Both the position numbers and the translations under genes were made by a program. A DNA stretch of 64,000 bases from the NCBI RefSeq assembly GCF_037935975.1, contig NZ_CP149817.1, positions 310,001 through 374,000 on the forward strand, written 5' to 3'. Below are positions 391 to 56,513 of this stretch, one piece after another (the stretch's first letter is position 1; each line of letters starts with the position of its first letter). The notes below the pieces were generated by a model. It was not told the DNA's origin and did no database searches. It saw only the letters and a program-made list of their open reading frames with translations. The DNA comes from Teredinibacter turnerae (GTDB taxonomy: Bacteria; Pseudomonadota; Gammaproteobacteria; Pseudomonadales; Cellvibrionaceae).

Positions 391-452
391 AGCCTAAATT
401 TTTGAGCATGTTTTTTGCTAAGTACGACATACCTAACTTTGAAGGATATCGC

Positions 453-1274: not shown

Positions 1275-1290
1275 CCGCTTAGGAGCTAGT

Positions 1291-2205: not shown

Positions 2206-2215
2206 GGACGCCGTG

Positions 2216-11083: not shown

Positions 11084-11896
11084 TGTTTTATGCAGCAGCT
11101 AATAAACAGCTGCTGCAGATGATTTTGTCCCGTTGAGCGCTGATGTTCGGTCGTCAGCAATTCCCGGGTGGCGTTGAATGATATCCTCTGTGAATGCGTG
11201 TGCTCCGTTAAACAGGAGCGCAGCGACCTACGCGCAGGCTCTCACTCGCAGCCACTCACTAGTAGCAACTTGCTAGTCGCTACTCTCCAGTAGTGCGGTG
11301 ATCGGGTGTAGTATGGTGACCAGGTGTAGTTCCGAGATCAAGAATAGTTCTTTGATCAAAAATAGTCCCGTGATTAAGCCATTCTTCCCCGGTAAAATAG
11401 ACGAGTACCCTTTTGGCCTATGTAAGTGCGCGCCTCAGAAATGCTGGCGCAAACGTGTGGTTTTTTAGTTTTTCAAGGGCTTGCATTGCCTTTCGGGCAA
11501 TGGCGGTACCTCCTTGCACAGCCTGTTAACTTTTGCCTGGTTTTAATACGGGTGAATACTTCAACGTGTTCACTGTTTAGCTGAACGTTTCACAAATTGT
11601 TGAAGTTGACGCCTAAATTTTTGTTGTAGCCACTTTGCGTAGTTTTGCGCCTTCAAATTTACGTCTTATCTCTCTATAGTCATACTTTTAGTGTTTTGCT
11701 GAGTTCTAGGCCTATGTGTAGATTTTTATGCCTATTATCTTTTGCTACCCCCGTGTCGTCTGGTTTGCGAATTACGTTGACTTGGTAGCGGCTGGGACGC
11801 TAGTCAGTGCCGCTGGGATGGCGGGCTGAGTTCTTCATTGTTTGACGTGGATGGTCACTGAGAACGGATTGAGGTAAAAGGATTGAGGTGCCAAGG
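11084..11896. other. Long leader region upstream of the first lipoprotein
   Basis: 813 bases with no supported gene. It holds an 18-base imperfect tandem repeat (11298-11387, listed separately), a 7-bp hairpin CATTGCC/GGCAATG at 11484-11502 and AT-rich sequence from 11580 to 11760 that could contain the promoter of the lipoprotein gene. Open frames on the minus strand that enter this region from 12627 are antisense shadows of the proline/serine repeats. The region is long enough for an untranslated leader or regulatory RNA, but I cannot recognise a known class. Confidence 0.5.
11298..11387. repeat. Imperfect 18-base tandem repeat, about five units
   Basis: Units start at 11298, 11316, 11334, 11352 and 11370. 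The first four share GATC/GACC-A/G near the start and TAGT at positions 13-16 (GTGATCGGGTGTAGTATG, GTGACCAGGTGTAGTTCC, GAGATCAAGAATAGTTCT, TTGATCAAAAATAGTCCC); the fifth keeps only GTGATTAAG. The spacing is exact with no indels. It does not code for anything obvious and sits 500-600 bases before the lipoprotein start. It may be a decayed array of protein-binding sites. Confidence 0.6.
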
Positions 11897-36411: not shown

Positions 36412-36420
36412 GGTTGTTGA

Positions 36421-37524
36421 GTGAAGCTTGAGGCGTTAACGTCGCTGCGGTTTTTCGCCGCGCTAATGGTACTGTGCAGTCACCTGCGTTTTCTCGCGGA
36501 AAGTGACAATTCGCTGGTTAAACTAATTTACGATAAAGTCTTTTGGGAAGGTTATATCGGCGTTACCTTCTTCTTCATTCTTTCTGGGTTTATTCTAAGC
36601 TTCGCTTATCAGCAACGATTACAGAGTCAGCAAATAGGATTTTGGGAGTACATGAGTGCGCGCATTGCCCGCATTTACCCGCTGCATATTGTTACCTGGC
36701 TACTGGCGCTGCCTTTGGTATTTTTTCTTGTACCTTCATCGACCGAGTCGTTGGCGACCTATCTCGCCAACGGCGTGTTAATCCAATCCTATTTTCCTGA
36801 CAGAGCCATCCATTTTTCGGCCAATATTCCGTCGTGGAGTCTGTCAGACGAAATGTTTTTTTACCTGTTGTTTCCTTTTCTTTTGCGTTGCGGTACCCGG
36901 GTGCTGCTCGGCCTGGTTGTGGTTTTGCTGGCATGGCACTTCGCCATTGCACTGAGCGAGCTGTCTGAACAGCGCAAACATTTTTACAACTATGTTTTTC
37001 CTCTGGCGCGCCTGCTGGATTTTGTAATCGGCCTTTTGTTGTTCCGCTGGTACAAGCAGGTATGGAAGCCGTTGCCGGAAAGCAAGGCAACCCTTATTCA
37101 AGTTGGCGCTCTGGGTTTGCTTGCTGTGTTTTTTGCTGTTAAGGGTGTGATTCCCCAGGCGCTGCGTTTTGATGTTTTTTATATTTTGCCTATGGCGCTG
37201 GTAATTGCGGCGTTTGCGACGGATCGCGGCCTGTTAGCCAAAGCGCTTCAACATCGCATACTGGTGCTGTTGGGTGAGGCGAGTTTTGCGCTTTATCTCA
37301 CTCACCATTTGGTTATCCGCTATGCGGAAGTGGCGGCCGATAATTGGGGGTGGCCCATGGGTGCTGTTGCCGCAACGGTGTTACTTGTTGTGGCGATAAT
37401 TGTGAGCGTGGTGTGTTACCTGGGTTTCGAGAGGCGATTGCACCGTTGGGCGCTGAGTCAACTTATTCCACTGGGGAAATCACTGGATCATGGACGCAAC
37501 ACTGCAAAAACACCGTCGAACTGA
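36421..37524 (+). CDS. Acyltransferase family 3 membrane protein (OafA/NodX-like)
   Basis: 367 residues, about ten membrane helices. Starts LEALTSLRFFAALMVLCSH, the R-F-x-A-x-x-V-x-x-x-H motif whose His is thought to take part in acyl transfer, and has GVTFFFILSGFILSFAY next. These proteins add acetyl or other acyl groups to surface sugars from the cytoplasmic acyl-CoA pool. GTG start with GAGG 7 bases upstream, nine bases after the PKS. It overlaps the next gene by 35 bases, so the two are coupled. Acceptor unknown. Confidence 0.85.
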   Translation: MKLEALTSLRFFAALMVLCSHLRFLAESDNSLVKLIYDKVFWEGYIGVTFFFILSGFILSFAYQQRLQSQQIGFWEYMSARIARIYPLHIVTWLLALPLVFFLVPSSTESLATYLANGVLIQSYFPDRAIHFSANIPSWSLSDEMFFYLLFPFLLRCGTRVLLGLVVVLLAWHFAIALSELSEQRKHFYNYVFPLARLLDFVIGLLLFRWYKQVWKPLPESKATLIQVGALGLLAVFFAVKGVIPQALRFDVFYILPMALVIAAFATDRGLLAKALQHRILVLLGEASFALYLTHHLVIRYAEVAADNWGWPMGAVAATVLLVVAIIVSVVCYLGFERRLHRWALSQLIPLGKSLDHGRNTAKTPSN

Positions 37525-38380
37525 TGTAGAGCTGTTACGGATAATTGCCGCGTTTCTTATTGTCTATTTTCACGGCCAAGGAATTATTCCAGCGCATTGG
37601 GCGTATGCGGGCCTTACCGTATTTTTGATATTTATGGGTTATTACGCCTGTGTCGGTCGGCCTAAGTCTATTCTTGCAACGGCGCAACGTTTACTTATTC
37701 CCTATGTTGTGTGGTTTGTCTTTTACTTCGTGCTGCGCTCGCTTCTCGATAAGCCCATCTTTCGCGAGCACGACAATCTGTTAACTTTTGCGTTGTCTTC
37801 GCCGTCAATTCACCTTTGGTTTTTGCCATTTGCGTTTATCTGTATTTCCCTGTTGCACTATCTGCGCCGGGCGGTGCCGGCATTGTTACTGGGCAGCGCG
37901 GCTGTTGGCGTTGCGACGGTCCTTATTCTCGCAGTGCCGCTATGGAAGGGGCTCGGAATATCAACGCCATTTATCCAATGGGTGCACGCGCTCGCGCCAG
38001 TGTTGATTGGTGTGGGCATAGCGCAACTACAAACGCAACGCCCTGTTTATCGCGGGTTGGCTTTGCTTTCGGTCATTGCGGCCTTGATCATAGCCACCTT
38101 GTGTGGTGAAGGCCGAACGGCTATCGGTTATGCGTTGGGGATTGCACTGTGCAGTGTACTGTTCGCAAGAGAAAGCCTTATTCGGCCTAATCGATTAGTT
38201 GATACGGTAGCGCCAACCACCATGGGCATCTACCTGGTTCACCCTGCTGCATTGGTGACTTTGTACTGGCTGGGTTTGCGTGCGGATGCCAACGTGGTCG
38301 TGGGCTTTTTGGTTTCTGCTGCAGGTGTGTGGCTGGTGCAGAAAGTGATGCCGCCAGCCGTAACCAGACTTCTGTTCTAA
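37490..38380 (+). CDS. Acyltransferase family 3 membrane protein
   Basis: 296 residues, shorter than its neighbour. RRTDVELLRIIAAFLIVYFHG is the family start with an aligned His, followed by AYAGLTVFLIFMGYYACVGRP and about eight to nine helices. The shorter length is typical of WecH-like members. The ATG lies 35 bases inside the preceding gene, in a different frame, an unusually long overlap. A pair of acyltransferases next to a PKS could transfer its product or acetyl groups to the polysaccharide. Confidence 0.8.
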   Translation: MDATLQKHRRTDVELLRIIAAFLIVYFHGQGIIPAHWAYAGLTVFLIFMGYYACVGRPKSILATAQRLLIPYVVWFVFYFVLRSLLDKPIFREHDNLLTFALSSPSIHLWFLPFAFICISLLHYLRRAVPALLLGSAAVGVATVLILAVPLWKGLGISTPFIQWVHALAPVLIGVGIAQLQTQRPVYRGLALLSVIAALIIATLCGEGRTAIGYALGIALCSVLFARESLIRPNRLVDTVAPTTMGIYLVHPAALVTLYWLGLRADANVVVGFLVSAAGVWLVQKVMPPAVTRLLF

Positions 38381-38388
38381 ATACCCTG

Positions 38389-41300
38389 CTAAATGTTAGC
38401 CCGCTTGGGTTTGCGCATCGCTTGCCGCATTTTCTGAGCCCGACTACTTGCTGACGCTTTAGCGATGGGCGTGGCGCTTGGTGCGGAGCCGATGTTCGCG
38501 CGATTATCCAGGTGTTCCGCCAGAGAACGTATGCTTGGATGAGTAAACATATCTGGTCTGGACAAGCCAAAGTTATGGCGACTGTTAAGTAGTGAATGCA
38601 CAGTCATCATGCCTAAGGAGTCGCCGCCGGCTTCGAAAAAGCCCACATCAAGCCCGCATTGCTCCTTGCCCAAAACCTCACACCAGGCATCGTGAATAAT
38701 TTTCTGATGGCCGCTGAGGTCACCGGTGGGAGCGACGTCTTCCGTCAATTGAGGCAGGCTGTACACCGGAATGTGTTTGCGGTCGACCTTGCCGCTGGAG
38801 GTCAGGCTGAATGCCGCCAGCTGTTGAAAGTAGCGCGGGATTTCGTAGGCAGGGAGTTTGCCGCTCAGGTAAGCGATTAAATCGGCTTCCTGAACTGTCA
38901 CCCCGGATGCGCATGTGTAGTGAGCAACCAGTGCCGTTGAGTTACCGGTGTCGAGCGTGGTTACAACAGCTAATTCAATGCCGCTGAAGCTCATCATGAC
39001 GTTTTCAATTTCGGCCAGCTCGATGCGCAAGCCGTTGATTTTAACCTGGAAGTCTTTGCGACCGAGAAACTCGATCTCGCCGGCACTATTCCAGCGGGCA
39101 AAATCGCCTGTGCGATAAACTCGACCTTTGCCAAACGGGTTAGCAATAAATCGCTCTGCGGTGAGGTTTTCCGCACCCACATAACCCTGTGCGACCTGAA
39201 CCCCTGCAATGAGTAACTCGCCCATCACACCGACGGGTACCGGTCTCATCTGTTCGTCCACAATATGCAGCTGCGTATTGGCGACGGGTTTGCCAATTGG
39301 CAGCACATGTCCTGCAAACGTGGGGGTACAAGTCCAGCAGCTCACGTCAATTGCCGCTTCTGTCGGACCGTAAAGGTTGTAGAGAGTGGCAGTTTTAAAT
39401 TGTGCGTAAAATTGCTGTTGGTGCTCCTGTTTTAATTCCTCGCCGCTGCAGATAACGGTTTTTACTGAGGGCAGGCCGTCGACTTTTGCAGTGAGCAATG
39501 CCGATAGCATCGCTGGTACAAAATGCACTAGATTCGCCTGAAATTGTTTTATCTGCTCGGCAATACTATAAGGATCCAAATGGCTGTCAGCCGCAGCGAT
39601 GGCCAGAGTCGCACCGGTTTGTAATGGCCAGAAAATTTCCCATACGCTCACATCAAAATTATACGGTGTTTTGAACAACGCAATTTGTTCTGTGCCGAGA
39701 TGAAATGTCTCCTGCATCCAGAGCAGCCGATTTGCTACACCGCGATGGCTGTTGGCGACGCCTTTCGGACGACCAGTGGAACCAGAGGTAAAGATGATGT
39801 AGGCGGTGGCGTCGGGATCGCGAGTAACGGCAACTGTGTCCGTTGGCTGTGTTTGAGCGAGCGAACCGAATTCCGACTCTGCGAGTATCTGACCTGAAAA
39901 CTCGAGGCCCGTGGGCAATTCAACGCTATTGAGCAGCAGTTTACAGCTAGCCTGGCGAAGCATATACGACACGCGATCGGCGGGCAGTTGGATGTCGATC
40001 GGCAAATAGGCTGCTCCCGCTTTTTGAATCGCATAGATGGACGCGATCATGTCGCGGCTGCGACTATATAACAGTGCGACCACATCGCCCGGTTTTATAC
40101 CTGTCTCAATAAGAGCCCGTGCGCGGCGATTGGCTTCTGCATTTAACTCCGCGTAACTGAGGTCGCCAGATGAATCGCGCAGGGCGGTGTTGTGGGGTGC
40201 TTTTGCCACCTGCACTTCAAACAAGTCCATGAGGTGGGAGGCGGCGTCGTATTCTGTCTCTGTCGCATTCACCTCGGCGATCAGGGCGCAGTCTTGCGCT
40301 GGCTGATAGTTAATATCGCTGAGGGCGGCGTCGGGGCTGGATACCATCTGCCCTAACACGCTGATATACGACGCGTTGAAGCGTTCAGCAAATTCGTGAT
40401 TAAACACGCTGGTATCGTATTCCAGGTCGCCGTGCAGTGCGTTGCCATCCTGCCAGCAACGCATAAAGAGCGCGAGCTGCGGTTCGTTCGGGCGAATAGC
40501 TAAGGGCGAGACTTCCGCATCGTTAAGCGCGAGTGTGAACGGGTGTTCAAAGGTGAATCCGTTACAGAAAAGCTTACCGTTATCCTGCCCGCTACCGGCA
40601 ACGAACGACGGATAGAATGGGTGCCGGTGCGCTCCGAGCATGGCGAAGCGAATCTCTTTCAGGGCTGCGAGAAAGCTCGTGCCTTCTTCCAGCTTGGCAA
40701 TAATCGGGGCAACGCTGATCAGACAACCGATGGTGGTGTCGTTACTGCTGTTGCGACGCAGTGACAAGGGCACACCCACAGCAAAATTGGTCTCGTTCGC
40801 GTATTTACTCAGCAGCCAGTAATACGCTGTCAGCATCACTAAAAAGGGTGAGCTGCTATGGGCTTTCGCGAAGTCCACCACGGCCGTTTGCAATTGCGCA
40901 GGCAACGGCAAGGTTGCGGTTTTCATCAGGCGGTCGCTGGATTCTGCGCCGCTGTGAATCTGGGTGTGCTTCTGAATGCCGTTTGTGCGTTCCTGCCAAT
41001 AGGTTTTTGCGCGCTCTCCCGCTGGCGACGCGAGCCATGAGGCGGCATCAGCGGTAACCAGATCGTAGTTGTCCTGCGCCTGCTTGAATGCGCAGATATT
41101 GCCGTTGTAGGCACGTTCTATGTATTCCTTAATAATGTCCTTGCTGGCAAGATCCATCACTATATGATGAAACACGATGGCGACACGTTTGGTATCGGCT
41201 TGCGCGGTCGGCTCAATAATCAGACGACACAACGGGCCATGCTCAAGTGAAAAATCCGCTTGGCACTGGTCTTCAAACCAACCTTGAGCGCGCGGAGCGT

Positions 41301-41568
41301 CGGCAATTTTTACGTCCAGAGCCTTACCACTGTAATCACGATGCAAATCGCCGTTCGCAAAACTGTAGGTCGCGTTAAAAATTCGGAACTTGGCGAGCGT
41401 GGTTGATACCGCATTGATCAGGCGATCCTGATCCAGCCCGCGTATCTGAAGTGCGCAGATGACGTTGTAGGCATTTCGGCGTCCCTTCTGGTCTGCCAGC
41501 CAGAACTGGGTTTCCGGCTCTGAGGCAACCAATGCGGGGGGTAGGCTGTATGAGGTATTTTCCACCAT
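38389..41568 (-). CDS. Non-ribosomal peptide synthetase, single module C-A-PCP (serine-type pocket)
   Basis: 1059 residues from the ATG at 41568 (GGAG three bases upstream); a GTG at 41682 would add 38 residues without homology. Condensation domain about 8-430 with HHIVMDL at 134-140, so the HHxxxDG glycine is Leu. Adenylation domain about 450-950: IIFTSGSTGRPKG, FDVSVWEIFW, LYGPTEAA and the closing lysine in SSGKVDRK. Aligned by eye with GrsA positions, the pocket reads D-V-W-H-I-S-L-I-D-K, close to the known serine code. Carrier with Ser984 (AGGDSLG). No thioesterase or epimerase. It is transcribed away from the methyltransferase at 41846. Confidence 0.9.
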   Translation of the reverse strand: MVENTSYSLPPALVASEPETQFWLADQKGRRNAYNVICALQIRGLDQDRLINAVSTTLAKFRIFNATYSFANGDLHRDYSGKALDVKIADAPRAQGWFEDQCQADFSLEHGPLCRLIIEPTAQADTKRVAIVFHHIVMDLASKDIIKEYIERAYNGNICAFKQAQDNYDLVTADAASWLASPAGERAKTYWQERTNGIQKHTQIHSGAESSDRLMKTATLPLPAQLQTAVVDFAKAHSSSPFLVMLTAYYWLLSKYANETNFAVGVPLSLRRNSSNDTTIGCLISVAPIIAKLEEGTSFLAALKEIRFAMLGAHRHPFYPSFVAGSGQDNGKLFCNGFTFEHPFTLALNDAEVSPLAIRPNEPQLALFMRCWQDGNALHGDLEYDTSVFNHEFAERFNASYISVLGQMVSSPDAALSDINYQPAQDCALIAEVNATETEYDAASHLMDLFEVQVAKAPHNTALRDSSGDLSYAELNAEANRRARALIETGIKPGDVVALLYSRSRDMIASIYAIQKAGAAYLPIDIQLPADRVSYMLRQASCKLLLNSVELPTGLEFSGQILAESEFGSLAQTQPTDTVAVTRDPDATAYIIFTSGSTGRPKGVANSHRGVANRLLWMQETFHLGTEQIALFKTPYNFDVSVWEIFWPLQTGATLAIAAADSHLDPYSIAEQIKQFQANLVHFVPAMLSALLTAKVDGLPSVKTVICSGEELKQEHQQQFYAQFKTATLYNLYGPTEAAIDVSCWTCTPTFAGHVLPIGKPVANTQLHIVDEQMRPVPVGVMGELLIAGVQVAQGYVGAENLTAERFIANPFGKGRVYRTGDFARWNSAGEIEFLGRKDFQVKINGLRIELAEIENVMMSFSGIELAVVTTLDTGNSTALVAHYTCASGVTVQEADLIAYLSGKLPAYEIPRYFQQLAAFSLTSSGKVDRKHIPVYSLPQLTEDVAPTGDLSGHQKIIHDAWCEVLGKEQCGLDVGFFEAGGDSLGMMTVHSLLNSRHNFGLSRPDMFTHPSIRSLAEHLDNRANIGSAPSATPIAKASASSRAQKMRQAMRKPKRANI

Positions 41569-41845
41569 TAACTCCGGGAGTATAACTATGTCCTTGATGA
41601 CTACATTTGCATTAAGGGCTGTGGATAAAAGCGTCTGCTGGCATAAATCATGTTTAACAACAGGCTCTAATATCGACGTCACCTAATGGCTCAGGGTTAT
41701 ATATCGAATAGATGCTAATAACATGCCATTGGCGATTATTTAACCCGACGGTGACATGCAGTAACATTGGATAAAGTGGTCTAACCGGCGGGCACTAAAG
41801 GCTTTTTATACGTGAAGCTTTCTTTGCAAGGAGCATCGAATCATC
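41569..41845. promoter_or_regulatory. Divergent promoter region of the NRPS and methyltransferase genes
   Basis: 277 bases between oppositely directed genes, assuming the NRPS starts at 41568. It must hold promoters for both. The 41690-41780 stretch is AT-rich. No operator symmetry stands out, and no regulator gene is adjacent. If the NRPS starts at 41682 the shared region shrinks to about 160 bases. Confidence 0.5.
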
Positions 41846-43000
41846 ATGAATACGGCATACGAGGCAAGTCATTTCGCCAATAATCTCGACGATGAAATTC
41901 GGCGGTTGAACGCACAGGTCGCGCTTTTTTGGCCGCAGGAGGGCGATTTACTGGCACAAGCCGGCTTGCGCGATGGCATGTCGGTATTGGATATAGGTTG
42001 TGGCCCGGGCCACCTTATCGGCCTGATAAAGCGGCGCTACCCCAACTGCCAAGTTTCGGGGTTAGAGCGTGACCCATTACTGGTGACTGCGGCTGAACAA
42101 TATTTGGCCAACGAGCAGCTTGTGGATTGTCAGATTTTCCAAGGCGCTGCAGAATCGCCACCCTTGCCCGAGAGCAGCTTCGACTTTATTACCATGCGCC
42201 TAGTGCTTGAGCATGTCTCCGAGCCGGAAGTTGTGCTCGCGGCAGTGCGCGCGTTGTTAAAGCCCGGCGGTTTGCTCGCTGTTATCTCTAACGACTTTGA
42301 TTTCCATTTGCGTACCTGGCCCCCGGTTAATGCTCTGCAGCCGCTCTACCAAGCCTACTGCACCGCCCGCCGAGACGACGGTGGCGACCCAACCATTGGG
42401 CGCCGCGTGCCCCAGTTGCTTCAGGTTGCCGGCTACAGTCTGGTGTTTAATCGGCTGGAGATGGCGCACAACGCAGAGCTCGGTGATGAGCCATTTTTGC
42501 GAGCGGAAGGCGCGGGGATACCAGCGCAGCTTGTAAAAAGTGGTTATCTTGCGCAGGCAGCCTTCGATGAGTTGGCGCGTGATTGGAAATCAATGCTGGA
42601 CACGCCAGGGCACGTTATCAGCCGACAATTGTGGTTGGCTGTCGGCCGTAACTGGGTTGCGGAAGGCGCTGAGGTGGAAGCGCCCAGCGCCCGTCAGGTA
42701 AAGGCTGCAGTGGATTTGCCGCTCCCGGATCGCGCCGCGTTGCTCACTTTGGTTCGGCAAGTCCTGGAAGATGATTTGCTGGACACAGACGATACCCTGA
42801 GTGATGCGGGAATCGATTCCGTGAGCGCGATCATTTTGCAGGATGCCATCAAAAACCTGACCTCTGTCGAAATCCCCATCCTCACGCTCCTGGACAATCT
42901 GGGGATTGACCGCCTGTGGCAGTTGGTCAGCGAGGGAAGTGGCGCAGCGGGGCCTGCTGTACAGGGCTCCAACGGGGTTACAGATGAGGGCGAGCTCTAG
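41846..43000 (+). CDS. SAM-dependent methyltransferase fused to a carrier-protein domain
   Basis: 384 residues. Class-I methyltransferase fold with the SAM loop VLDIGCGPGHL at 47-57, an acidic residue at SGLERDP and the post-I motif FDFITMRLVLEHV. Residues about 295-370 form a carrier domain with Ser325 in AGIDSVSA, the phosphopantetheine site. The arrangement suggests methylation of something carried in cis or by a partner. AAGGAG lies before the ATG. It shares a divergent promoter region (41569-41845) with the NRPS. The next gene starts two bases after its stop. Confidence 0.85.
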   Translation: MNTAYEASHFANNLDDEIRRLNAQVALFWPQEGDLLAQAGLRDGMSVLDIGCGPGHLIGLIKRRYPNCQVSGLERDPLLVTAAEQYLANEQLVDCQIFQGAAESPPLPESSFDFITMRLVLEHVSEPEVVLAAVRALLKPGGLLAVISNDFDFHLRTWPPVNALQPLYQAYCTARRDDGGDPTIGRRVPQLLQVAGYSLVFNRLEMAHNAELGDEPFLRAEGAGIPAQLVKSGYLAQAAFDELARDWKSMLDTPGHVISRQLWLAVGRNWVAEGAEVEAPSARQVKAAVDLPLPDRAALLTLVRQVLEDDLLDTDDTLSDAGIDSVSAIILQDAIKNLTSVEIPILTLLDNLGIDRLWQLVSEGSGAAGPAVQGSNGVTDEGEL

Positions 43001-43001
43001 G

Positions 43002-44501
43002 ATGGATGGAGAGACGCTACTCGAAGCTCTCGCTAAAGAACGCGTTTTTCTGAAGCTGCATGGCGATAAACTGAAATACCGGGTACCGGGTGGTGAGCTC
43101 AGCCCGCAATTGGCCCATCAGATCAAGCAAGCCAAGCCCATGCTCGCGGACTGTCTTGCTGGAGAGACCGATTATTGTCTGATAAGCCCGCTGTCTGCGA
43201 ACCAGCAATCGCTGTTTTTCAATTATCAAGTTGGGCCTGAGTCCACCGCGTACGATTTGGCGATCGGCGTTCACCTGTCTGGCCGGGTCGATGAGCATCG
43301 CTTGCGCGCAGCGCTTGTGGGCCTGCTCACGCTCTACCCCTGTTTGGGGGCCAGTTATCGTGTGCTTACCATCGGGGGAAGAACGCTCCCCTGCCAGCTT
43401 GTTGGAATGGGTGACGTTGACCGCTTCGAGCTGCAGGTAGAAATGGTGGCGGATTTGGATGCAGCCCTGGAACTCGCACAAAATTTCTATGACGCGCCTC
43501 TCACTCTCGAGTCATCGCCTAACTTTTTTTGTAAATTGATAAATTTTTCGACATCTGAGTCAGCGCTTGTGCTGAAGTTTCCCCACCTCAGTGCTGATGG
43601 CTGGACAATGGGGATGATTGTTTCTGCTTTGAACAAACTGTATACAGATTCGACACCGACAGAAATGGTCTTTCCCTTGTACACTGACTATGTGATAGAT
43701 CAGCGCAACCAGGAGGCCGCTCGCCGGGCATCAGCACAAGCCTATTGGCAAAGTCAGTTGCGGCATATTCCTGCATACACGTCGCTTAGCGAGAGTGAAT
43801 CGCCACCACTCGAACAGGTTACCCAGCGCATTCCGCAAGGAGAGACCCAGTTTTTTGAGATTTCTTCTCAGGGGCGGGAGCGGGTAGAGGTTTTTGCTCA
43901 GCAACACCACACTACGGCGTCCGTGGTACTGCTGGCCGTCATGCAGCGTCAATTACTGGCAGTAAACTCAGAGGGTGTAATCGTCGGCGTGCCGACACTG
44001 GGGGCGAGGGCGCCTGGTTACTTCTCCAGCGCAGGGTATTTCGTAAACCCAGTGCCAGTATTTGCTGGGCCAGGCAGGCTGTCGCAGACATTTGGCGAGC
44101 ACTTGCAGGAGACTGCGACCGATCTGGCCGGCGCGTTAGAGTATCGCGACTATCCGTTTGCCTGGCTGGTCAAGGGCCTGGGGTTGGCGCCGGATTTAAG
44201 CACTACGCCGGTGTTCCAAGTGCTGTTCAATTTTTTGCAGCGAGAGGTACTGGGAAATCTGGTGGACTGGTTGTACCCCTGGACAGAGACGCCGAGCCGG
44301 CCATTCCTCGGTTTACCCACAAACCCCTTTCCCGTGTTTCAACAGGAAGGCCAATTCGACCTAACTCTCGAGTTTATCGATAACGGAGAGTCCTATCTCG
44401 GTCTATTGAAATACGATCCGGCCAGGCTCAGCGAGGATGCCGCCGGTGACTGGATCGACGCTTACCTGGCCGCGTTAGACCTGGCGCTCTCTGAGAGCTA
44501 A
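43002..44501 (+). CDS. Stand-alone condensation-domain protein with TubC-type docking domain
   Basis: 499 residues from ATG 43002. Residues 1-50 (LLEALAKERVFLKLHGDKLKYR ... LSPQLAHQIKQAKPMLADC, quoted in parts) match the TubC N-terminal docking fold that mediates enzyme-enzyme contacts in NRPS lines. The rest is a condensation domain with PHLSADG near residue 194: the first His of HHxxxDG is Pro but the second, catalytic one is present. No adenylation domain. It would accept carrier-bound partners from the NRPS and the methyltransferase-carrier fusion. An in-frame ATG at 42984 would overlap the previous gene. Confidence 0.85.
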   Translation: MDGETLLEALAKERVFLKLHGDKLKYRVPGGELSPQLAHQIKQAKPMLADCLAGETDYCLISPLSANQQSLFFNYQVGPESTAYDLAIGVHLSGRVDEHRLRAALVGLLTLYPCLGASYRVLTIGGRTLPCQLVGMGDVDRFELQVEMVADLDAALELAQNFYDAPLTLESSPNFFCKLINFSTSESALVLKFPHLSADGWTMGMIVSALNKLYTDSTPTEMVFPLYTDYVIDQRNQEAARRASAQAYWQSQLRHIPAYTSLSESESPPLEQVTQRIPQGETQFFEISSQGRERVEVFAQQHHTTASVVLLAVMQRQLLAVNSEGVIVGVPTLGARAPGYFSSAGYFVNPVPVFAGPGRLSQTFGEHLQETATDLAGALEYRDYPFAWLVKGLGLAPDLSTTPVFQVLFNFLQREVLGNLVDWLYPWTETPSRPFLGLPTNPFPVFQQEGQFDLTLEFIDNGESYLGLLKYDPARLSEDAAGDWIDAYLAALDLALSES

Positions 44502-45708: not shown

Positions 45709-46662
45709 ATGCCATATCTCAATAAAATAATCACTGTTACTCTCATCAGTATTTTGGCCTATGCCGCCTGGGTTGTATTCTCCGGCTACGACGAGGTGTC
45801 CGCGGGCCTGCAACGCGTGAGTGTTCAGGGTTTCGCGGTGTTGGTTTTATTGTCACTTTTTAATTACGGTGTACGATTTTTGCGCTGGCACTGGATGATC
45901 GCCAGGGTCACGGGAGTATCCGTTCCATTGAAAGCCCATATGGAATGCTATGTTTCTGGGTTTGCGCTAACTGCAACACCGGGCAAAGTGGGTGAAGCGC
46001 TGCGCTCCGTTTACCTGAAGGAATATGGTGTTAAAGCCAGTGATTCTCTCGCCGCACTTTTCGCCGAACGCTTAATTGATTTAATTTCTGTGTTAATTAT
46101 TGGGTCGTTTGCGTTGTTCTATTTTGAGCAGTTTCAGTGGGCCGCCTATCTGGTTATTGCCGTTGTGGTTGTCAGCGGATTGTGTTTGCGCTCGCGCCTG
46201 TTTTTGCAAATGCTGGAGTCACTCGCTACAAACGCGAGGCACCCGACAGTAAAAAAAGTACTGTCAGGTTTATCCCGTACGTTACAGGCGGCAGCAAAAT
46301 TTATGGGCTGGCGTATCTGGTTGGTCGGCCTGGTGATGGGCGTTGTATCCTGGGGAGCAGAAGCCTGGGGTTTCGTACTGTTGGTTAAATGGCTCACTGG
46401 AAATGAATGGATTTTGTTGGCCGCGGGCATTTATTCACTCAGCATGATTGTGGGTGCGCTGAGTTTTATGCCCGGCGGGCTGGGGGGGGCTGAGGCCGTG
46501 ATGGCCAGTATGCTGGTTATGCTCGGCGTGTCGTTTTCAGATGCAACCGTTGCTACCATTATTTGTAGAGTGGTAACACTCTGGCTCGCTATATTTATCG
46601 GGCTCGCAGTAATGGCAAAATTACAGATGAGATATAAAGCCACATTTCGTGTTGAGGAGTGA
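45709..46662 (+). CDS. LPG-synthase-TM/UPF0104-family membrane protein (putative lipid flippase)
   Basis: 317 residues, about eight membrane helices. The motif ALSFMPGGLGGAEAVM near residue 245 and ALTATPGKVGEALRSVYL near 85 are those of the UPF0104/LPG_synthase_TM family, which includes the MprF flippase half and AglD/YbhN. No soluble domain. It starts an operon for polyprenyl-phosphate arabinose, and could flip that lipid to the periplasm; this role is inferred from position. The ribosome site before the ATG is weak. Its stop overlaps a GTG that could start the next gene. A second, distinct member of the family lies at 55527. Confidence 0.8.
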   Translation: MPYLNKIITVTLISILAYAAWVVFSGYDEVSAGLQRVSVQGFAVLVLLSLFNYGVRFLRWHWMIARVTGVSVPLKAHMECYVSGFALTATPGKVGEALRSVYLKEYGVKASDSLAALFAERLIDLISVLIIGSFALFYFEQFQWAAYLVIAVVVVSGLCLRSRLFLQMLESLATNARHPTVKKVLSGLSRTLQAAAKFMGWRIWLVGLVMGVVSWGAEAWGFVLLVKWLTGNEWILLAAGIYSLSMIVGALSFMPGGLGGAEAVMASMLVMLGVSFSDATVATIICRVVTLWLAIFIGLAVMAKLQMRYKATFRVEE

Positions 46663-46670
46663 TACGAAGA

Positions 46671-48119
46671 ATGATTGATAGCAGAGATCAAACCCCGCTA
46701 CTGGTTGACCTCGACGGATCGTTGATCTGTACAGATAGTCTGCACGAGACAGCAATGCTGTTGTTAAAAAATAAACCCTGGCTGATTATCCATATGTTTT
46801 TTTGGCTGATGGCTGGCAAACAGGTGTTGAAGGGAAAGTTATACCGCTACACCGAGCTGAACGTTGAAGCCCTGCCCTATCGCGAAGAGGTGGTCGCATA
46901 TTTGAAAGAGGAGCACCAAAAAGGCAGAGAGCTTATTTTGTGCACGGGTACCTGGTTTAAGCTTGCGGAGAAGATTGCCGAGAATCTTGGTGTGTTCTCT
47001 GGCGTCGTCGCGACGGACGAGCAGGTGAATCTGACGGGTAAGTACAAAGCGAAATATGCTTTAGATACCTATGGTGACAAAGGCTTTGCCTACCTTGGAA
47101 ATTCCTCACCCGACTTACATGTATGGCAGTATGCAAAATCTGCGGTGGTGGTCGGTGGCGAAAGTCTTGCGGCTAAAGCACGCAAAGTGTGTGAAGTTGA
47201 AAAAGTGATCACACCGTCGAAACTGACCCTCAAGGTCGTGTTGAAAGCGATTCGAATACACCAGTGGGCAAAAAACGGATTGTTGTTTGTGCCTTTGTTA
47301 ATGGCCCACAAAATAGATTCGTTGCAATCCATTACCGACGTGATCTGCGCATTTATCGCATTTGGCTTGTGTGCATCATCAACCTATTTGTTTAACGATC
47401 TGTTAGACCTTGAAGCGGATCGCAAGCATCACACAAAATGTAAAAGACCGCTTGCCAGCGGGATCTTGCCTATACCTGAAGGCATTATGCTATGTGCCGG
47501 TTTAATGCTTGCAGGTATTCTTATTGCGCTAACCGTAAACCTGCATTTTATCTACGTGCTGGCGGCATATTTATTTATTACGGTTTTTTACAGTTTTAAG
47601 TTGAAGAAACTGCAAACTGTCGATGTGATTGTGTTGGCGAGCCTGTTTACAATTCGCGTTATTGCCGGCGGTGTGGCGGCGGGGGTTGAGCTTACGTTCT
47701 GGTTGTTGAGTTTTTCGATGTTCCTGTTTTTATCGCTGGCAATTGTTAAACGCGTGAGTGAGCTTATTAATACCGCAAAAAATCAAACAACAGAAACCAC
47801 CGATAAACAAATTCTCGGCCGGGGGTATTATCAGTCCGACATGGAGATACTCCAGAGCCTGGGCGGCAGTGCAGGATTTCTCGCGGTACTGGTAATGGCG
47901 TTCTATATCAATAGTGACGATGTAATTCAGTTGTATAGTCATCCACAGGTACTTTGGCTGATCTGCCCGGTTATCGGCTACTGGATAATGCGAATTTGGA
48001 TGCTCACTGCACGGGGTCAAATGAACGAAGACCCCATCAGTTTCGCCATTAAAGATCAAAATAGTTGGTACGCCGGTGCAGTTTTGATAGTTATTCTTAT
48101 CACTGCGGGTATGCTCTAG
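46671..48119 (+). CDS. HAD phosphatase domain fused to UbiA prenyltransferase (decaprenyl-phosphate 5-phosphoribosyltransferase-like)
   Basis: 482 residues. The N-terminal 200 are a HAD-fold domain: LVDLDGSLICTD (nucleophile Asp13), ILCTGTW and GNSSPDLHVW as late acid motif. The rest is a UbiA domain of eight to nine helices with NDLLDLEADRKH (242-253), the Asp-rich diphosphate site, and KRPLASG. In mycobacteria UbiA (Rv3806c) adds 5-phosphoribose to decaprenyl phosphate, and a phosphatase then removes the 5-phosphate before DprE1/DprE2 act. The fusion therefore carries both first steps in one chain. GTG 46659 with overlapping stop is an alternative start. DprE1 follows 9 bases on. Confidence 0.85.
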   Translation: MIDSRDQTPLLVDLDGSLICTDSLHETAMLLLKNKPWLIIHMFFWLMAGKQVLKGKLYRYTELNVEALPYREEVVAYLKEEHQKGRELILCTGTWFKLAEKIAENLGVFSGVVATDEQVNLTGKYKAKYALDTYGDKGFAYLGNSSPDLHVWQYAKSAVVVGGESLAAKARKVCEVEKVITPSKLTLKVVLKAIRIHQWAKNGLLFVPLLMAHKIDSLQSITDVICAFIAFGLCASSTYLFNDLLDLEADRKHHTKCKRPLASGILPIPEGIMLCAGLMLAGILIALTVNLHFIYVLAAYLFITVFYSFKLKKLQTVDVIVLASLFTIRVIAGGVAAGVELTFWLLSFSMFLFLSLAIVKRVSELINTAKNQTTETTDKQILGRGYYQSDMEILQSLGGSAGFLAVLVMAFYINSDDVIQLYSHPQVLWLICPVIGYWIMRIWMLTARGQMNEDPISFAIKDQNSWYAGAVLIVILITAGML

Positions 48120-48127
48120 GAGCGACT

Positions 48128-49447
48128 ATGAAAAAGGAATCCTGGTCCTGGGGGGGAATCCCCAAGGCATCTCACCAGGTGGTTAATCTCAGGTGGCGCA
48201 CAGATACCATAGACTTCGCTGGCTTTGCAGCCAGCTGTCTGCCTTACGGTTTGGGGCGTAGTTATGGCGATGTGCCTATAAATGACGAAGGCGTACTGGT
48301 GCGAACCACGGCACTGGATCGAGTGATCGCTTTCGATCCTGAAACCGGTGTATTGCATTGTGAGGCTGGTATTAGCCTGGGCGATATTTTGCGTGTCGTT
48401 GTTCCCCGCGGCTGGTTTTTACCGGTGACGCCAGGTACGCAGTTCGTTACGCTCGGCGGCGCGATAGCCAATGATGTGCACGGCAAAAATCATCACTGCG
48501 CCGGTACCTTCGGCTGCCATGTGTTGGGTTTTGAATTATTGCGCTCCAGTGGTGAGAAACTCTGGTGTACGCCAACAGAACATGCGGATTATTTTGCGGC
48601 AACAGTCGCCGGCTTGGGGCTCACCGGGCTTATTCTCACCGCCAAAATTCAGCTCACCAAAATTGCCGCCAATAAAATTGATGTGAACAATCAGGCGTTT
48701 AACGGCCTCGACGAAGGTCTCGATTTATTCGAGCAGCACGAGGACACAACCTATACCGTCGCCTGGGTGGATTGTCTGACGCGCGGTGCGCAATTGGGGC
48801 GGGGTATTTTTTCCGGGGGGGAATTCAGCCAAACCGAGAGCCGAAAAAATCTGGCAACTAAACGCCTCGCCGTGCCGCTGGATTTTCCGTCGTTTTCATT
48901 GAATAAATACTCAGTACAGGCATTTAATAATCTCTACTTTGCCAATGGCAAACGAAAGTCGGGACGAGGAGTAACAGACTACGAGCCTTTCTTTTATCCG
49001 CTGGATAAAGTGCATGCATGGAATCGCATCTATGGCCGTAAAGGTTTTTACCAATACCAGTGCTGCGTCCCTTTCGGCGAGGCGAACGAAGGCAGGGAAG
49101 CGATCAGGGAAATGCTGAATCAGATCAGTTTATCTGGTAACGCATCTTTCCTCGCCGTACTCAAGGTATTTGGTGATAAGCAATCACCTGGTATGTTGTC
49201 GTTTCCAGAAAAAGGTATAACACTGGCGTTGGATTTTCCTAATTGGGGTGACAAAACCCAACGCTTATTTGACCGCCTGGATGCGATAGTACGCGAGCTA
49301 CACGGCAAAAATTACCCAGCTAAAGATGCCTGCATGAAGGCTGCGGACTTTCAGCGGCAATATCCCCAGTGGCAGGAATTTGCCAGTTTTATTGACCCCA
49401 AATTCAGCTCGAGCTTCTGGCGACGGGTAACACAGGAGAATGCATGA
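48128..49447 (+). CDS. dprE1: Decaprenylphosphoryl-ribose 2-oxidase-like FAD enzyme (DprE1)
   Basis: 439 residues. FAD-linked oxidase with the PP-loop region YGLGRSYGDVPIND and DVHGKNHHCAGTFGCHV, where the His equivalent to the flavin-linked His132 of mycobacterial DprE1 is kept. Near the C-terminus MLSFPEKGITLALDFP aligns with MLSFP...WNICVDFP of the mycobacterial enzyme, so the Cys targeted by benzothiazinones is Ala here; the active Lys in YPAKDA is kept. It oxidises the 2-OH of polyprenyl-phosphate ribose. AGGAG is 5 bases before ATG 48128; earlier in-frame starts lie inside the UbiA gene. It overlaps dprE2 by four bases. Confidence 0.9.
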   Translation: MKKESWSWGGIPKASHQVVNLRWRTDTIDFAGFAASCLPYGLGRSYGDVPINDEGVLVRTTALDRVIAFDPETGVLHCEAGISLGDILRVVVPRGWFLPVTPGTQFVTLGGAIANDVHGKNHHCAGTFGCHVLGFELLRSSGEKLWCTPTEHADYFAATVAGLGLTGLILTAKIQLTKIAANKIDVNNQAFNGLDEGLDLFEQHEDTTYTVAWVDCLTRGAQLGRGIFSGGEFSQTESRKNLATKRLAVPLDFPSFSLNKYSVQAFNNLYFANGKRKSGRGVTDYEPFFYPLDKVHAWNRIYGRKGFYQYQCCVPFGEANEGREAIREMLNQISLSGNASFLAVLKVFGDKQSPGMLSFPEKGITLALDFPNWGDKTQRLFDRLDAIVRELHGKNYPAKDACMKAADFQRQYPQWQEFASFIDPKFSSSFWRRVTQENA

Positions 49448-50190
49448 ACGTATTAATTTTGGGTGCGACATCGGCTATCGCGCAGGCCGTGGCTCGCCAG
49501 TTTTTGTTGTCGGCCACAACACCAGTAAAATTCGTTCTGGTGGGGCGCAATGAGGAAAAGCTTACGTTGATCGCAGAAGATTTAATGGGGCGTTCAGCGA
49601 CGGCAGCGCATGTGCAGGTGCAAGACCTCACCCAGCTGGATGCGATGGACGTCTGTATCAGCCGAGCCTGGGAAACACTGGGTAATATCGACGTCGCGCT
49701 TATCGCGCACGGCACCTTGCCAGAGCAACGCGAGATCGAAAAGAGCTGGGAGCTTACCGAGCAGGCGTTGCGGGAAAACGCGCTCTCCCATATGGCGTTG
49801 ATGGAAGCGCTGGCGTTGCGTATGGAAGCGATCAAGCGGGGTACGATTGCGGTTATCGGTTCTGTAGCGGGCGATCGCGGGCGGCAGAGCAACTATATCT
49901 ACGGTGCCGCCAAAGGTGCGACCGCCATTTACGCTCAGGGTTTACGTAACCGATTGACAAAATCCGGGGTGCACCTGCTGACCATTAAGCCGGGCTTTGT
50001 CGATACACCGATGACCGAATCTATTGCGAAAAAAGGGTTGTTGTGGGCATCACCCGAGCAGGTCGCACAAGATATCGTTAAGGCCGTCCAGAAAAAGCGT
50101 AACGTTATTTACACGCCGGGCTTCTGGTGGTTGATTATGACCATTGTTAAATCCGTCCCCGAATTTATTTTCAAAAAGCTGTCTATGTAG
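49444..50190 (+). CDS. dprE2: Decaprenylphosphoryl-2-keto-ribose reductase (DprE2), short-chain dehydrogenase
   Basis: 248 residues of SDR fold. NAD(P)-binding GATSAIA near the start, catalytic Ser in GSVAGDRGRQSN and YIYGAAK with the Tyr and Lys. A C-terminal hydrophobic helix (VIYTPGFWWLIMTIVKSV) matches membrane-associated DprE2. It reduces the 2-keto intermediate to give polyprenyl-phosphate D-arabinose. It starts in the ATGA overlap with dprE1 and is the last gene of the operon. A terminator hairpin follows. Confidence 0.9.
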   Translation: MNVLILGATSAIAQAVARQFLLSATTPVKFVLVGRNEEKLTLIAEDLMGRSATAAHVQVQDLTQLDAMDVCISRAWETLGNIDVALIAHGTLPEQREIEKSWELTEQALRENALSHMALMEALALRMEAIKRGTIAVIGSVAGDRGRQSNYIYGAAKGATAIYAQGLRNRLTKSGVHLLTIKPGFVDTPMTESIAKKGLLWASPEQVAQDIVKAVQKKRNVIYTPGFWWLIMTIVKSVPEFIFKKLSM

Positions 50191-53406: not shown

Positions 53407-54204
53407 ATGGTTACAGCGATGAGCTTGCCGGGAGCTAAACAGGAGTCCGATTTGTCAGTTAGAAAAATCAAAATCCTTACGGTGAATATGCACAAAGGGT
53501 TTAACGCATTTAATAGGCGCTTCACGCTTCACGAGTTGCGGGACGCTCTGCGAGAGATTAATCCGGATGTGGTTTTTCTCCAAGAGGTTTTGGGGGAACA
53601 TCGTCAGTTTGCTACGCGCTATACGGACTTGTGGCCAGAGCAATCGCAGTATGAATTTTTAGCGGATCAAGTGTGGTCTGCACACGCATATGGTCGCAAT
53701 GCGGTTTATCCACACGGGCACCACGGAAATGCATTGCTTAGCCGGTTTCCAATTGATCGCTGGCACAATCACGATATCTCGTTGAGTGGTATTGAGAAAC
53801 GAGGGTTGCTGTACTGCCATTTAGATCTCGGGGAACAAAAACTCCATGCGATTTGTGTCCATTTAAGTTTGCGTGAATCGCACCGGCAGATTCAGCTGAA
53901 ACGGCTGAGCAAATTGGTTAATTCGCTGCCAGCAGATGAACCCGTCGTGGTTGCTGGGGATTTTAACGATTGGCGTTTGAAGGCGGAAAATCTACTGTTT
54001 AACGAAAGTCGCCTGGTCGATGCTTATACTGGCCATCGTGGCAAGCCGGCAAGATCATTTCCGGTGGCGATGCCAATGCTGCGACTGGACAGAATTTATT
54101 TGCGGCGCAACAGTCGCTACGAGATCGAGCGGTTACATCGTTCACCCTGGTCTCGGATTTCGGACCATAAGCCACTGATGGTGGAATTAGATATTCAGGA
54201 GTGA
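53407..54204 (+). CDS. ybhP: Endonuclease/exonuclease/phosphatase family protein (YbhP-like)
   Basis: 265 residues of the DNase-I-like fold: LTVNMHKGF, VVFLQEVLGEH (metal Glu), the middle NALLSRFPI and the late GDFNDWR with SDHKPLMVEL. It lies first in a group ybhP-clsB-ybhN that has the same order as in E. coli. Family members act on phosphoester or phospholipid-derived substrates; the true substrate is unknown. The domain begins near residue 20, so a start later than ATG 53407 (ATG 53419 or TTG 53452) is possible. Confidence 0.85.
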   Translation: MVTAMSLPGAKQESDLSVRKIKILTVNMHKGFNAFNRRFTLHELRDALREINPDVVFLQEVLGEHRQFATRYTDLWPEQSQYEFLADQVWSAHAYGRNAVYPHGHHGNALLSRFPIDRWHNHDISLSGIEKRGLLYCHLDLGEQKLHAICVHLSLRESHRQIQLKRLSKLVNSLPADEPVVVAGDFNDWRLKAENLLFNESRLVDAYTGHRGKPARSFPVAMPMLRLDRIYLRRNSRYEIERLHRSPWSRISDHKPLMVELDIQE

Positions 54205-54207
54205 GTT

Positions 54208-55527
54208 ATGTTTGCATATAAAGGGGACAAAAAGTCGCGAGGTGGCAATACGCTAACTCTGCTAAAAGATGGCGAAGAGTTTTATGCTCAGTTGCTGCGT
54301 CGCATTCGGCGCGCGCGGCGGGAAGTCTTTTTGGAAACCTTTATATTGGCAGACGACAGAATAGGCAACCTGTTGCGTCGGGCATTACTTGCCGCTGTAA
54401 GACGGGGTGTCTGGGTGAGTGTCACCGCCGATAGCTACGGCACATTCTTCCTAAAAGATGAATATATCTACGAATTAAGTCGAGCGGGTGTTATTTTTCA
54501 AATTTACGATCCACAACCAAAATTATTTAACAGCCGTCCAAAAGTCATTCGCCGGCTCCACCGTAAACTTGCGGTGATAGATAACACGTATGCATTCGTG
54601 GGCGGCATTAATCTTTGCGACGATCACCTGACACACCACAATGCTAACGGCAAACGTGATTTTGCAGTGGAAATTGTCGGGCCGGTAGTGCAGGACGTAA
54701 GGCGTTTGTGCGCGAGCTATGTAAGGGAGGTTGCACCGGATCGCAAAGCCGTGTTTGACGATACCCAGGTAACGCCACCTCCCGCCCACTACCAGGTGCA
54801 CAAGAATGCTGAAGTAGCGTTTATCAGCCGTGATAATCGCCGCAATCGATCAGAAATTGAGAAGGCCTATTTGGCCGCGATTCACCGCGCTAAAAAAAGC
54901 GTGACTATCGCTAACGCCTATTTTTTTCCGGGTTATCGGATGATACGTGCGATGCGCAAGGCCACTGCGCGTGGGGTACGTGTGCGTTTGATTCTCCAGG
55001 GCAACCCCGACATTCCAATGGCGCTGCGCGCGGCACAATGCCTGTACGACACACTGATACGTCACAACATAGAGGTATACGAGTATACCGAGCGCCCACT
55101 ACACGCGAAAATTGCCACCATTGACGACAACTGGTCGTCCATTGGCTCGAGTAACCTGGACCCTTGGAGCTTGTCATTAAATCTTGAGGCAAATATTTTC
55201 GTAGAGCAGCCCGAGTTTAATACCCAGCTACGAGAAGAAATGGAAATGCTGATAGAGCAATCTCGTCGCGTGGAATACGAAACGCTACAAAAACTGGATT
55301 GGGTCGCGCAAATGAGAAATACATTGCTCTATCATTTTTTACGGCGCCTGCCTGGGCTGGTTACACGTATTCCGAATCCTCATCCGCGGGTGGAACAGTT
55401 GCGTCGCATCTTTACCACCAAGGCAGGCGAGTCGCGTAATAAACATCTAGCTCGCGAGTATCCCGAATCAAAAAATGCACGTCAGGTCATTGTCGAGCGC
55501 CGTTCGCAGACATTGGGAGAAGTGTAA
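54208..55527 (+). CDS. clsB: Cardiolipin synthase B (ClsB), phospholipase D family
   Basis: 439 residues with two HKD motifs: HRKLAVIDNTYAFVGG near 112-128 and LHAKIATIDDNWSSIGSSN near 290-310 (each H-x-K-x4-D). It makes cardiolipin from phosphatidylglycerol or another phospholipid. Absence of N-terminal membrane helices fits ClsB, not ClsA. It starts four bases after the ybhP stop and its own stop overlaps the next ATG (TAATG), so the three genes are coupled. Confidence 0.92.
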   Translation: MFAYKGDKKSRGGNTLTLLKDGEEFYAQLLRRIRRARREVFLETFILADDRIGNLLRRALLAAVRRGVWVSVTADSYGTFFLKDEYIYELSRAGVIFQIYDPQPKLFNSRPKVIRRLHRKLAVIDNTYAFVGGINLCDDHLTHHNANGKRDFAVEIVGPVVQDVRRLCASYVREVAPDRKAVFDDTQVTPPPAHYQVHKNAEVAFISRDNRRNRSEIEKAYLAAIHRAKKSVTIANAYFFPGYRMIRAMRKATARGVRVRLILQGNPDIPMALRAAQCLYDTLIRHNIEVYEYTERPLHAKIATIDDNWSSIGSSNLDPWSLSLNLEANIFVEQPEFNTQLREEMEMLIEQSRRVEYETLQKLDWVAQMRNTLLYHFLRRLPGLVTRIPNPHPRVEQLRRIFTTKAGESRNKHLAREYPESKNARQVIVERRSQTLGEV

Positions 55528-56513
55528 TGACCGTTCTGGCGAAGGCGTCTCACTCTGTGTCTCATATGAAGAATAAAATTCCCTGGGGAACCCTAAAAAA
55601 AGTCGCAAGTGGATTGTTCTTTCTGCTGGTTGCCTACTTGTTAGTCTCGAAGGCGCGAGAACTGGAGTGGAATAAAATCTGGTCCACCTTCCGGGAGACA
55701 GATCCCGCAACGCTGTGGTTGGCAACCGTTATTGGCATGGCCTGTTACTTGGCCTACGCCAGCTATGATTTGATTGGTAGAAAATTGTTCGACGTTGAGA
55801 TTCCCGCGTACAAAACGGTGTTGGCGGCGTGGATCAGCTATGCCTGTAACCTTAATCTGGGCGCGATTATTGGCAGTGTCGCGCTGCGCTATCGGCTCTA
55901 TTCAAGGCTGGGCGTTAAGCCCTCAACAGTCACCAAAATTATGGGTGTAAGTGTATTCAGTAACTGGGCGGGTTATGTGATGTTAGCTGGTGGGCTTTTC
56001 GTCACTGGCGCGTTCGAGCCACCGGAGTCGTGGGCTGTCGGGGATATTGGTTTTCGATTGTTGGGGGGGGTATTCCTTGCGCTGGTTGCCACGTACGTGG
56101 GTGTTTGCGCTTTCGCTAACCAGCGAACCTACCGGCTACGGGATCGTGAATTTACGCTACCCGAGTTAAAAATTGTTGCCTGGCAACTGACCACGGCGGC
56201 TGTTCACTGGACACTTATGGCAACAGTGATCTATCAGTTTTTTCAAGGCGACCTGGACTTTACAACGGTCTATATCGCGCTGTTAGTAAGCTGTGTGGCT
56301 GGTGCTGTTTCACATGTTCCTGGTGGGCTTGGGGTGTTGGAAGCTGTATTCGTGGCGTTGCTCGCCGGCGAGTTACCTCGGCACGAAATACTCGCTGGGG
56401 TGTTTGCATATCGATGTGTTTTCTACTTTGTACCACTGGCTTTTACACTGCCCTTGTACGGAATTTTCGAAACAGTACTGGCAAAAAAATCGGATGCCTC
56501 AACTGCTGATTAG
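55527..56513 (+). CDS. ybhN: UPF0104 membrane protein YbhN
   Basis: 328 residues with about eight membrane helices. Motifs NLNLGAIIGSVALRYRLYSRLG and SHVPGGLGVLEAVFVALLAG are those of the UPF0104/LPG-synthase-TM family. In E. coli ybhN sits after clsB, as here; a link to lipid or lipid-linked-sugar movement is proposed for the family but not shown for this protein. ATG 55527 overlaps the clsB stop by one base; an internal ATG at 55566 is an alternative. Confidence 0.85.
   Translation: MTVLAKASHSVSHMKNKIPWGTLKKVASGLFFLLVAYLLVSKARELEWNKIWSTFRETDPATLWLATVIGMACYLAYASYDLIGRKLFDVEIPAYKTVLAAWISYACNLNLGAIIGSVALRYRLYSRLGVKPSTVTKIMGVSVFSNWAGYVMLAGGLFVTGAFEPPESWAVGDIGFRLLGGVFLALVATYVGVCAFANQRTYRLRDREFTLPELKIVAWQLTTAAVHWTLMATVIYQFFQGDLDFTTVYIALLVSCVAGAVSHVPGGLGVLEAVFVALLAGELPRHEILAGVFAYRCVFYFVPLAFTLPLYGIFETVLAKKSDASTAD

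Follow-up and report, generated by a model that had tools for sequence, protein, structure and literature searches.

A four-gene operon of Teredinibacter turnerae likely to make a lipid-linked D-arabinofuranose donor, with a candidate flippase of the PF03706 family

We examined a 64,000-nucleotide stretch of the Teredinibacter turnerae genome (contig NZ_CP149817.1, positions 310,001 to 374,000; hereafter the window), and focused on an operon at window positions 45709–50190 that encodes a flippase-like membrane protein, a HAD phosphatase domain fused to a UbiA domain, and DprE1-like and DprE2-like enzymes. Judging from its sequence, the operon very likely makes polyprenyl-phosphate-D-arabinofuranose, a donor for the addition of D-arabinofuranose outside the cytoplasmic membrane. 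In the proposed pathway, the UbiA half of the fusion would act as a polyprenyl-phosphate phosphoribosyltransferase and the HAD half would take off the 5-phosphate; the DprE1-like enzyme would oxidize C2 and the DprE2-like enzyme would then reduce it, converting ribose to arabinose; the membrane protein, a member of family PF03706, would flip the finished donor; and a GT-C transferase encoded elsewhere, perhaps at 21475–23088, would add arabinose to a surface glycan. The scheme argues by analogy: both steps of the fusion were shown for a homologue and the DprE1/DprE2 step is established for the mycobacterial family, and to these it adds a predicted flipping step, transfer and acceptor.

The donor operon is very probably real and of a known kind, with a function that was proposed earlier. 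We put forward more tentatively, as something short of an even chance, that it represents a widespread operon class in which the PF03706 (MprF-flippase-like) protein would be a dedicated polyprenyl-phosphate-D-arabinose flippase that replaces an SMR-like transporter, with the donor feeding AftB-like transferases encoded elsewhere; this would constitute a Gram-negative branch of arabinosylation outside the mycobacteria. Papers are cited below by their PMC numbers.

Operon layout

The genes and domains of the operon are as follows.

45709–46662, plus strand: gene 1, flippase-like membrane protein of PF03706/TIGR00374 (UPF0104), 317 aa (family searches; flippase role predicted)
46659–48119, plus strand: gene 2, HAD-UbiA fusion, 486 aa, GTG start, NCBIfam NF006088 (families, alignment, structure model, characterized homologue)
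46695–47213, plus strand: HAD phosphatase domain of the fusion, about residues 13–185, with D17/D19, T96, K130 and G147/D152 (alignment, model)
47226–48116, plus strand: UbiA phosphoribosyltransferase domain of the fusion, about residues 190–486, with N246, D247, D250, D254, R365 and E368 (alignment, fold)
48128–49447, plus strand: gene 3, DprE1-like flavin adenine dinucleotide (FAD) oxidase, 439 aa from ATG 48128 (families, solved relatives)
49444–50190, plus strand: gene 4, DprE2-like short-chain reductase, 248 aa (family searches)

All four open reading frames (ORFs) lie on the plus strand in the window's ORF list, and neighbors overlap (by 4 bases for genes 1/2 and genes 3/4) or nearly touch. 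For gene 3 the list gives TTG 48065 as the first codon; more probable is ATG 48128, which is preceded by AGGAG and lies 8 bases past the gene 2 stop. Gene 1 matched PF03706 with 134 bits (gathering cut-off 33.4) and TIGR00374 with 82 bits (43.2), and the Pfam families of genes 3 and 4 were FAD_binding_4 and adh_short. These coordinates, overlaps and matches confirmed the tight operon order described in the first-pass annotation. The arrangement is not due to chance, since matches to all three partner profiles accompanied the fusion in 19 of 33 loci from the same order, window included. Neither of two scans stood clearly above shuffled sequence: 3 promoter-like sites were found by consensus against 5.6 expected, and 10 terminator-like sites against 6.9 expected (sd 2.7).

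The HAD-UbiA fusion

A single reading frame carried both PF12710 HAD (33 bits, cut-off 27) and PF01040 UbiA (84 bits, cut-off 34.2), and the whole protein matched NF006088 with 656 bits against a curated cut-off of 351, so that the N-terminal fusion of HAD to UbiA reported earlier stands. NCBIfam names NF006088 merely ‘UbiA family prenyltransferase’, and a PHROGs search with the fusion gave no match. The nearest solved relative of the UbiA half was Rv3806c, whether the comparison was by sequence (8j8j, phmmer 3.7e-28) or by structure (Foldseek 2.8e-11, TM by target 0.84). The structure model had a mean predicted local distance difference test (pLDDT) score of 93.1, and its HAD half resembled SerB-type (phosphoserine-phosphatase) structures with weak E values from 8e-4 and a probability of 1.00 (Foldseek).

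We aligned 26 of the 33 fusions of the order, window included (alignment A1). HAD motifs I–IV comprise a nucleophile Asp, a Thr/Ser, a Lys and an Asp; A1 held D17/D19, T96, K130 and G147/D152 at the corresponding places. D19, K130, G147 and D152 were invariant and D17 nearly so, and motif II was T or S in the rows checked. The catalytic residues on which the phosphatase idea hinged are thus retained, and the model’s HAD half matches SerB-type phosphatases. The exception at D17 was locus L068 (1230–2720), where N replaces the nucleophile and the phosphatase half is possibly inactive. In the UbiA half, N246, D247, D250, D254 and R365 were invariant and E368 nearly so, so that the protein has every loop residue that PMC11127046 lists (N, D, D, D; R, E).

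What this architecture catalyzes has been established before in a homologue. Kelly et al. (2024; PMC11127046) reported that Citrobacter youngae ORF15, which has an N-terminal HAD on UbiA, forms farnesyl-phosphate ribose from phosphoribosyl pyrophosphate (PRPP), that the HAD-domain mutant D18A yields mainly the 5-phosphate product, and that N247, D248, D251 and D255, counterparts of residues in the window’s fusion, are required for in vitro activity. Families, motifs, model and ORF15 agree in making the HAD domain a candidate for the 5-phosphate phosphatase, as had been suggested. The HAD-UbiA fusion is a common and already characterized architecture and no discovery in itself. In Pseudomonas viridiflava (L094, 7935–9431) the HAD motif is likewise N-terminal; for P. 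syringae B728a the domain is described as C-terminal (PMC11127046).

Of the 145 genomes sampled from the order, 33 (own genome included) held a fusion exceeding the NF006088 cut-off; none of 14 control genomes did. A contig scan with the single fusion protein as query gave 8 stretches, none confirmed as a relative. The scan with A1 gave at least 584 pattern stretches in named genomes, at least 470 of them encoding relatives. The record titles of the best 80 of these relatives included Gamma-, Beta- and Alphaproteobacteria, Nitrospira, Corallococcus, Myxococcota, Acidobacteriota, Verrucomicrobiota and Desulfobacterales.

The DprE1-like and DprE2-like enzymes and the identity of the sugar

The nearest solved relatives of gene 3 were DprE1 entries (2.8e-69), aligned over residues 33–425 of 440, and its best NCBIfam match was DprE1 NF053785. 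The DprE1/DprE2 step is consistent with these families and with the literature on the characterized homologue (PMC11127046). Several points nonetheless weigh against an arabinose donor pathway. Gene 3 reached 367 bits with NF053785, below its equivalog cut-off of 500, and gene 4 reached 163 bits with DprE2 NF053786, below its equivalog cut-off of 250, while passing the general short-chain dehydrogenase/reductase (SDR) model NF005489 (298 bits vs 267). As for the fusion, ORF15 D18A still left a little dephosphorylated product, and ORF15 R366A and E369A remained active, so that R365 and E368 of the window’s protein are no proof of function (PMC11127046).

The two missed cut-offs would fit an oxidase/reductase pair of other specificity that delivers ribose or another pentofuranose, and the system is known in ribose and xylose forms (PMC11127046). 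We consider this highly improbable, because DprE1/E2 homologues occur in the candidate systems of arabinofuranose glycans and an ORF13 homologue in those of xylofuranose (PMC11127046), and because the alignment of gene 3 to solved DprE1 spans residues 33–425 of 440. Families, motifs, model and the characterized homologue (PMC11127046) together support the lipid-linked arabinose pathway read from this operon at first pass.

The neighborhood of the fusion and the flippase question

We surveyed the neighborhoods of 113 fusions, comprising the 33 loci of the order and 80 loci from named genomes, by comparing partner profiles with six-frame ORFs and counting a neighbor if it lay on the same strand within 7 kb of the fusion. 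The two sets share one contig (L054 = L072), which reduces the distinct loci to 112 and those with a PF03706 gene from 38 to 37. Loci at contig ends were retained, and no MATE flippase profile was among the profiles used. Near the fusion we found PF03706 in 38 loci, DprE1-like genes in 83 and DprE2-like genes in 69; SMR-like genes (at least 26 loci) and GtrA-like genes (at least 16) are given as lower bounds, since the profiles were built from uneven sources (PF03706 22 loci, SMR 4, GtrA 2).

PF03706 and SMR-like genes never occurred together (0 of 113 loci; Fisher 7e-6, a value that, like other Fisher values here, overstates significance because the surveyed loci are mutually related). The same held for the 75 loci of at least 17 kb, of which 25 had PF03706 and 19 had SMR; an SMR match on the opposite strand in L135 was left out of the counts. 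A DprE1-like gene was present in 36 of the 38 PF03706 loci, and a DprE2-like gene in 3 of the 26 SMR loci. The PF03706 gene lay directly upstream of the fusion in all 22 PF03706 loci of the order, and behind the DprE2-like gene in six of eight Pseudomonas-titled loci (L093, L094, L101, L106, L111, L127). On these sequence patterns, it is as if the PF03706 protein and the SMR-like transporter substitute for each other.

PF03706 proteins have been predicted as flippases, above all in archaeal glycosylation (PMC5898192). A PF03706/UPF0104 gene in operons of this type was not mentioned in the titles and abstract beginnings of the literature matches listed. Elsewhere in the own genome, a locus (L158, 4495–11154; genome positions about 2,504,500–2,511,150) holds in a row genes for PAP2, PMT_2 fused to PAP2, PMT_2, GT2 and PF03706, the last matching with 82 bits. 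This is likely a second lipid-linked-sugar system with a PF03706 gene, and a lipid-linked-sugar flippase would be expected to stand, as this PF03706 gene does, next to GT-C enzymes and a likely lipid-sugar synthase. We take the row as a second sign that the family may serve lipid-linked sugars, that is, as context and no proof.

Some loci point the other way. PF03706 occurred with GtrA in three of 113 loci (L082, L105, L146; not significant), to which Pfam added L127, and in such loci the PF03706 protein need not be the flippase. Two further loci (L051, L058) hold PF03706 and the fusion without DprE1-like or DprE2-like genes nearby; in each genome a different contig carries a DprE1-like gene (246 and 356 bits). 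The GtrA loci would suit a different account, in which the arabinose donor is made, another transporter flips it, and the PF03706 protein moves an ordinary lipid or helps to recycle polyprenyl phosphate. Consistent with that account, the flippase activity reported for the PF03706 family, in the N-terminal domain of MprF, concerns lysyl-phosphatidylglycerol (PMC5898192), and gene 1 shares its genome with at least two further PF03706 proteins (window 55527–56513 and L158). Against it, PF03706 is bound to the fusion and the DprE1-like gene in two gene orders and avoids SMR, and the L158 gene stands among lipid-linked-sugar genes. We regard this account as possible but rather unlikely. The neighborhood data favor gene 1 as the flippase of the donor, a role that we consider moderately probable. 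A compact operon with a single conserved flippase candidate from another family would offer a direct way into the flipping question.

The further PF03706 gene of the window (55527–56513), of the same family as gene 1, ends a row at 53407–56513 in which it follows a nuclease/phosphatase-like gene and a phospholipase D/cardiolipin-synthase-like gene (by eye). This row resembles the ybhP-clsB-ybhN trio.

A candidate transferase outside the operon

The first-pass annotation called the operon complete. This holds for donor synthesis and does not extend to the transferase, for the ORF list shows none inside the operon, as that annotation itself had said. No GT-C transferase was found encoded alongside donor synthase and flippase; a candidate lies about 23 kb away within the window.

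21475–23088, minus strand: candidate arabinosyltransferase, a GT-C membrane protein remotely like AftB, 537 aa (profile comparison; role predicted)

The gene adjoins Wzy-like (20056–21402; 31.4 bits, just below the cut-off of 31.7) and Wzx-like (18643–20019) genes in a polysaccharide cluster, and the family profile of its protein matched nothing else in the own genome at E ≤ 0.001. Relatives occurred in 5 of 144 other genomes: four with the PF03706-type operon (G013, G017, G059, G120) and one with no fusion above the cut-off (G027). The relatives in the profile were 21–25% identical to the window’s protein, i.e., remote. When the profile of five members (window included) was compared with solved chains at E ≤ 10, AftB 9dlf (9.2e-7) was the only glycosyltransferase match, and the two remaining rows were antibody chains. 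The match covered profile positions 17–266 and left the second half unaligned. D43, E151 and R196, invariant in the five, aligned with AftB D62, E172 and R221. For AftB, the D62 mutant and R221 mutants are reported as inactive, and E172 as contacting the sugar (PMC12041299).

Other searches spoke less clearly. The protein’s only NCBIfam match was NF047440, a putative glycosyltransferase, at 68 bits against a cut-off of 200, which counts against an AftB assignment. Searched alone, it matched neither a solved protein (phmmer) nor, at E ≤ 0.001, any Pfam family, though PMT_2 reached 37.5 bits in the genome search; its structure model had a mean pLDDT of 52.5, too low for use. The AftB model NF041481 (cut-off 1050 bits) gave matches at E ≤ 0.001 in 16 of 145 genomes, none above the cut-off and the own genome not among them; of the 14 controls, only Corynebacterium glutamicum gave a match. 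By this test, AftB-like genes were present in 10 of 21 genomes with the PF03706 operon (own left out) versus 6 of 123 others (Fisher 2e-6; genomes not independent), in 5 of 9 versus 6 of 38 when counted by family (p = 0.023), and in none of 11 fusion genomes without PF03706. The same test found none in the other 11 of 21 PF03706-operon genomes.

A large multi-helix protein was encoded near the fusion in 6 of 11 loci of the order without PF03706: PMT_2 in L063 and L067, and proteins with 7–10 predicted helices and no Pfam match in L045, L047, L056 and L070. The GT-C proteins of L047 and L063 had no match in the own genome, an empty answer obtained without a control. Among the PF03706 loci of the order, where some of the neighbors were scanned, no GT-C protein was assigned, and the large neighbors in L041 and L054 were a TgpA-type and an exosortase protein. 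Of the loci from named genomes, L101 (PMT_2), L127 (GtrII) and L132 (PMT_2, other strand) had GT-C genes near PF03706. The own genome also encodes the two PMT_2 proteins of L158, beside GT2, PF03706 and PAP2, and DIE2_ALG10 and PTPS_related proteins in L159; these resemble other lipid-linked-sugar systems, yet they could equally be the transferase. That the 21475–23088 protein is an arabinosyltransferase using the operon’s donor is a tentative proposal, with the odds against it. If AftB-like transferases outside the mycobacteria do share this donor, they would provide further models for the arabinosyltransferase mechanism.

The Wzy-like and Wzx-like neighbors make an exopolysaccharide plausible as the acceptor. 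Alternatively, the acceptor could be a type IV pilin and no polysaccharide, with the AftB-like protein unrelated; in the precedent of Pseudomonas paraeruginosa pilin arabinosylation the donor cluster likewise lies far from the pilin-transferase genes (PMC12369383). We judge a pilin acceptor less likely than not, though worth bearing in mind.

Several other features of the window were seen by eye. Sulfate-activation-like genes (CysQ, CysD, CysN/C) beside glycosyltransferase-like genes at 402–4114 suggest a sulfated polysaccharide. Around the polysaccharide cluster are three long, similar-looking lipoprotein-like proteins (11888–14416, 15135–17426, 25666–27762), the first two P/S/T-rich near the start. 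Upstream of the operon, 32644–44501 holds polyketide synthase/nonribosomal peptide synthetase (PKS/NRPS)-like genes, to which family searches added two acyltransferases and a condensation domain.

Comparison with known systems

The closest counterpart is the three-component system of Citrobacter youngae O1/O2 (ORF15 PPPRS-PRP, ORF14, ORF12 GT136), which has the same HAD-UbiA fusion with the same residues and makes a lipid-linked pentofuranose donor. It differs in having a MATE protein as proposed flippase, the epimerase ORF13 (O2) and a transferase inside the cluster, whereas the window’s operon has PF03706 and DprE1/E2 and lacks a transferase. The mycobacterial decaprenyl-phosphate-arabinose pathway (Rv3806c, Rv3807c, DprE1, DprE2, Rv3789) performs the same chemistry with homologous UbiA and DprE1 proteins and a DprE2-type reductase, but uses a separate, unrelated phosphatase in place of the fusion and the SMR-type Rv3789 as proposed flippase (PMC11127046). 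In P. paraeruginosa (PSPA7_6245–6251 and TfpW), a Gram-negative D-arabinofuranose donor cluster is likewise served by a transferase encoded elsewhere (PMC12369383); there the phosphoribosyltransferase has no fused phosphatase (PMC11127046) and the acceptor is pilin. Finally, AftB (PDB 9dlf), the mycobacterial terminal beta-(1->2)-arabinofuranosyltransferase, is the remote match of the window’s GT-C profile, in which three of its residues find their counterparts.

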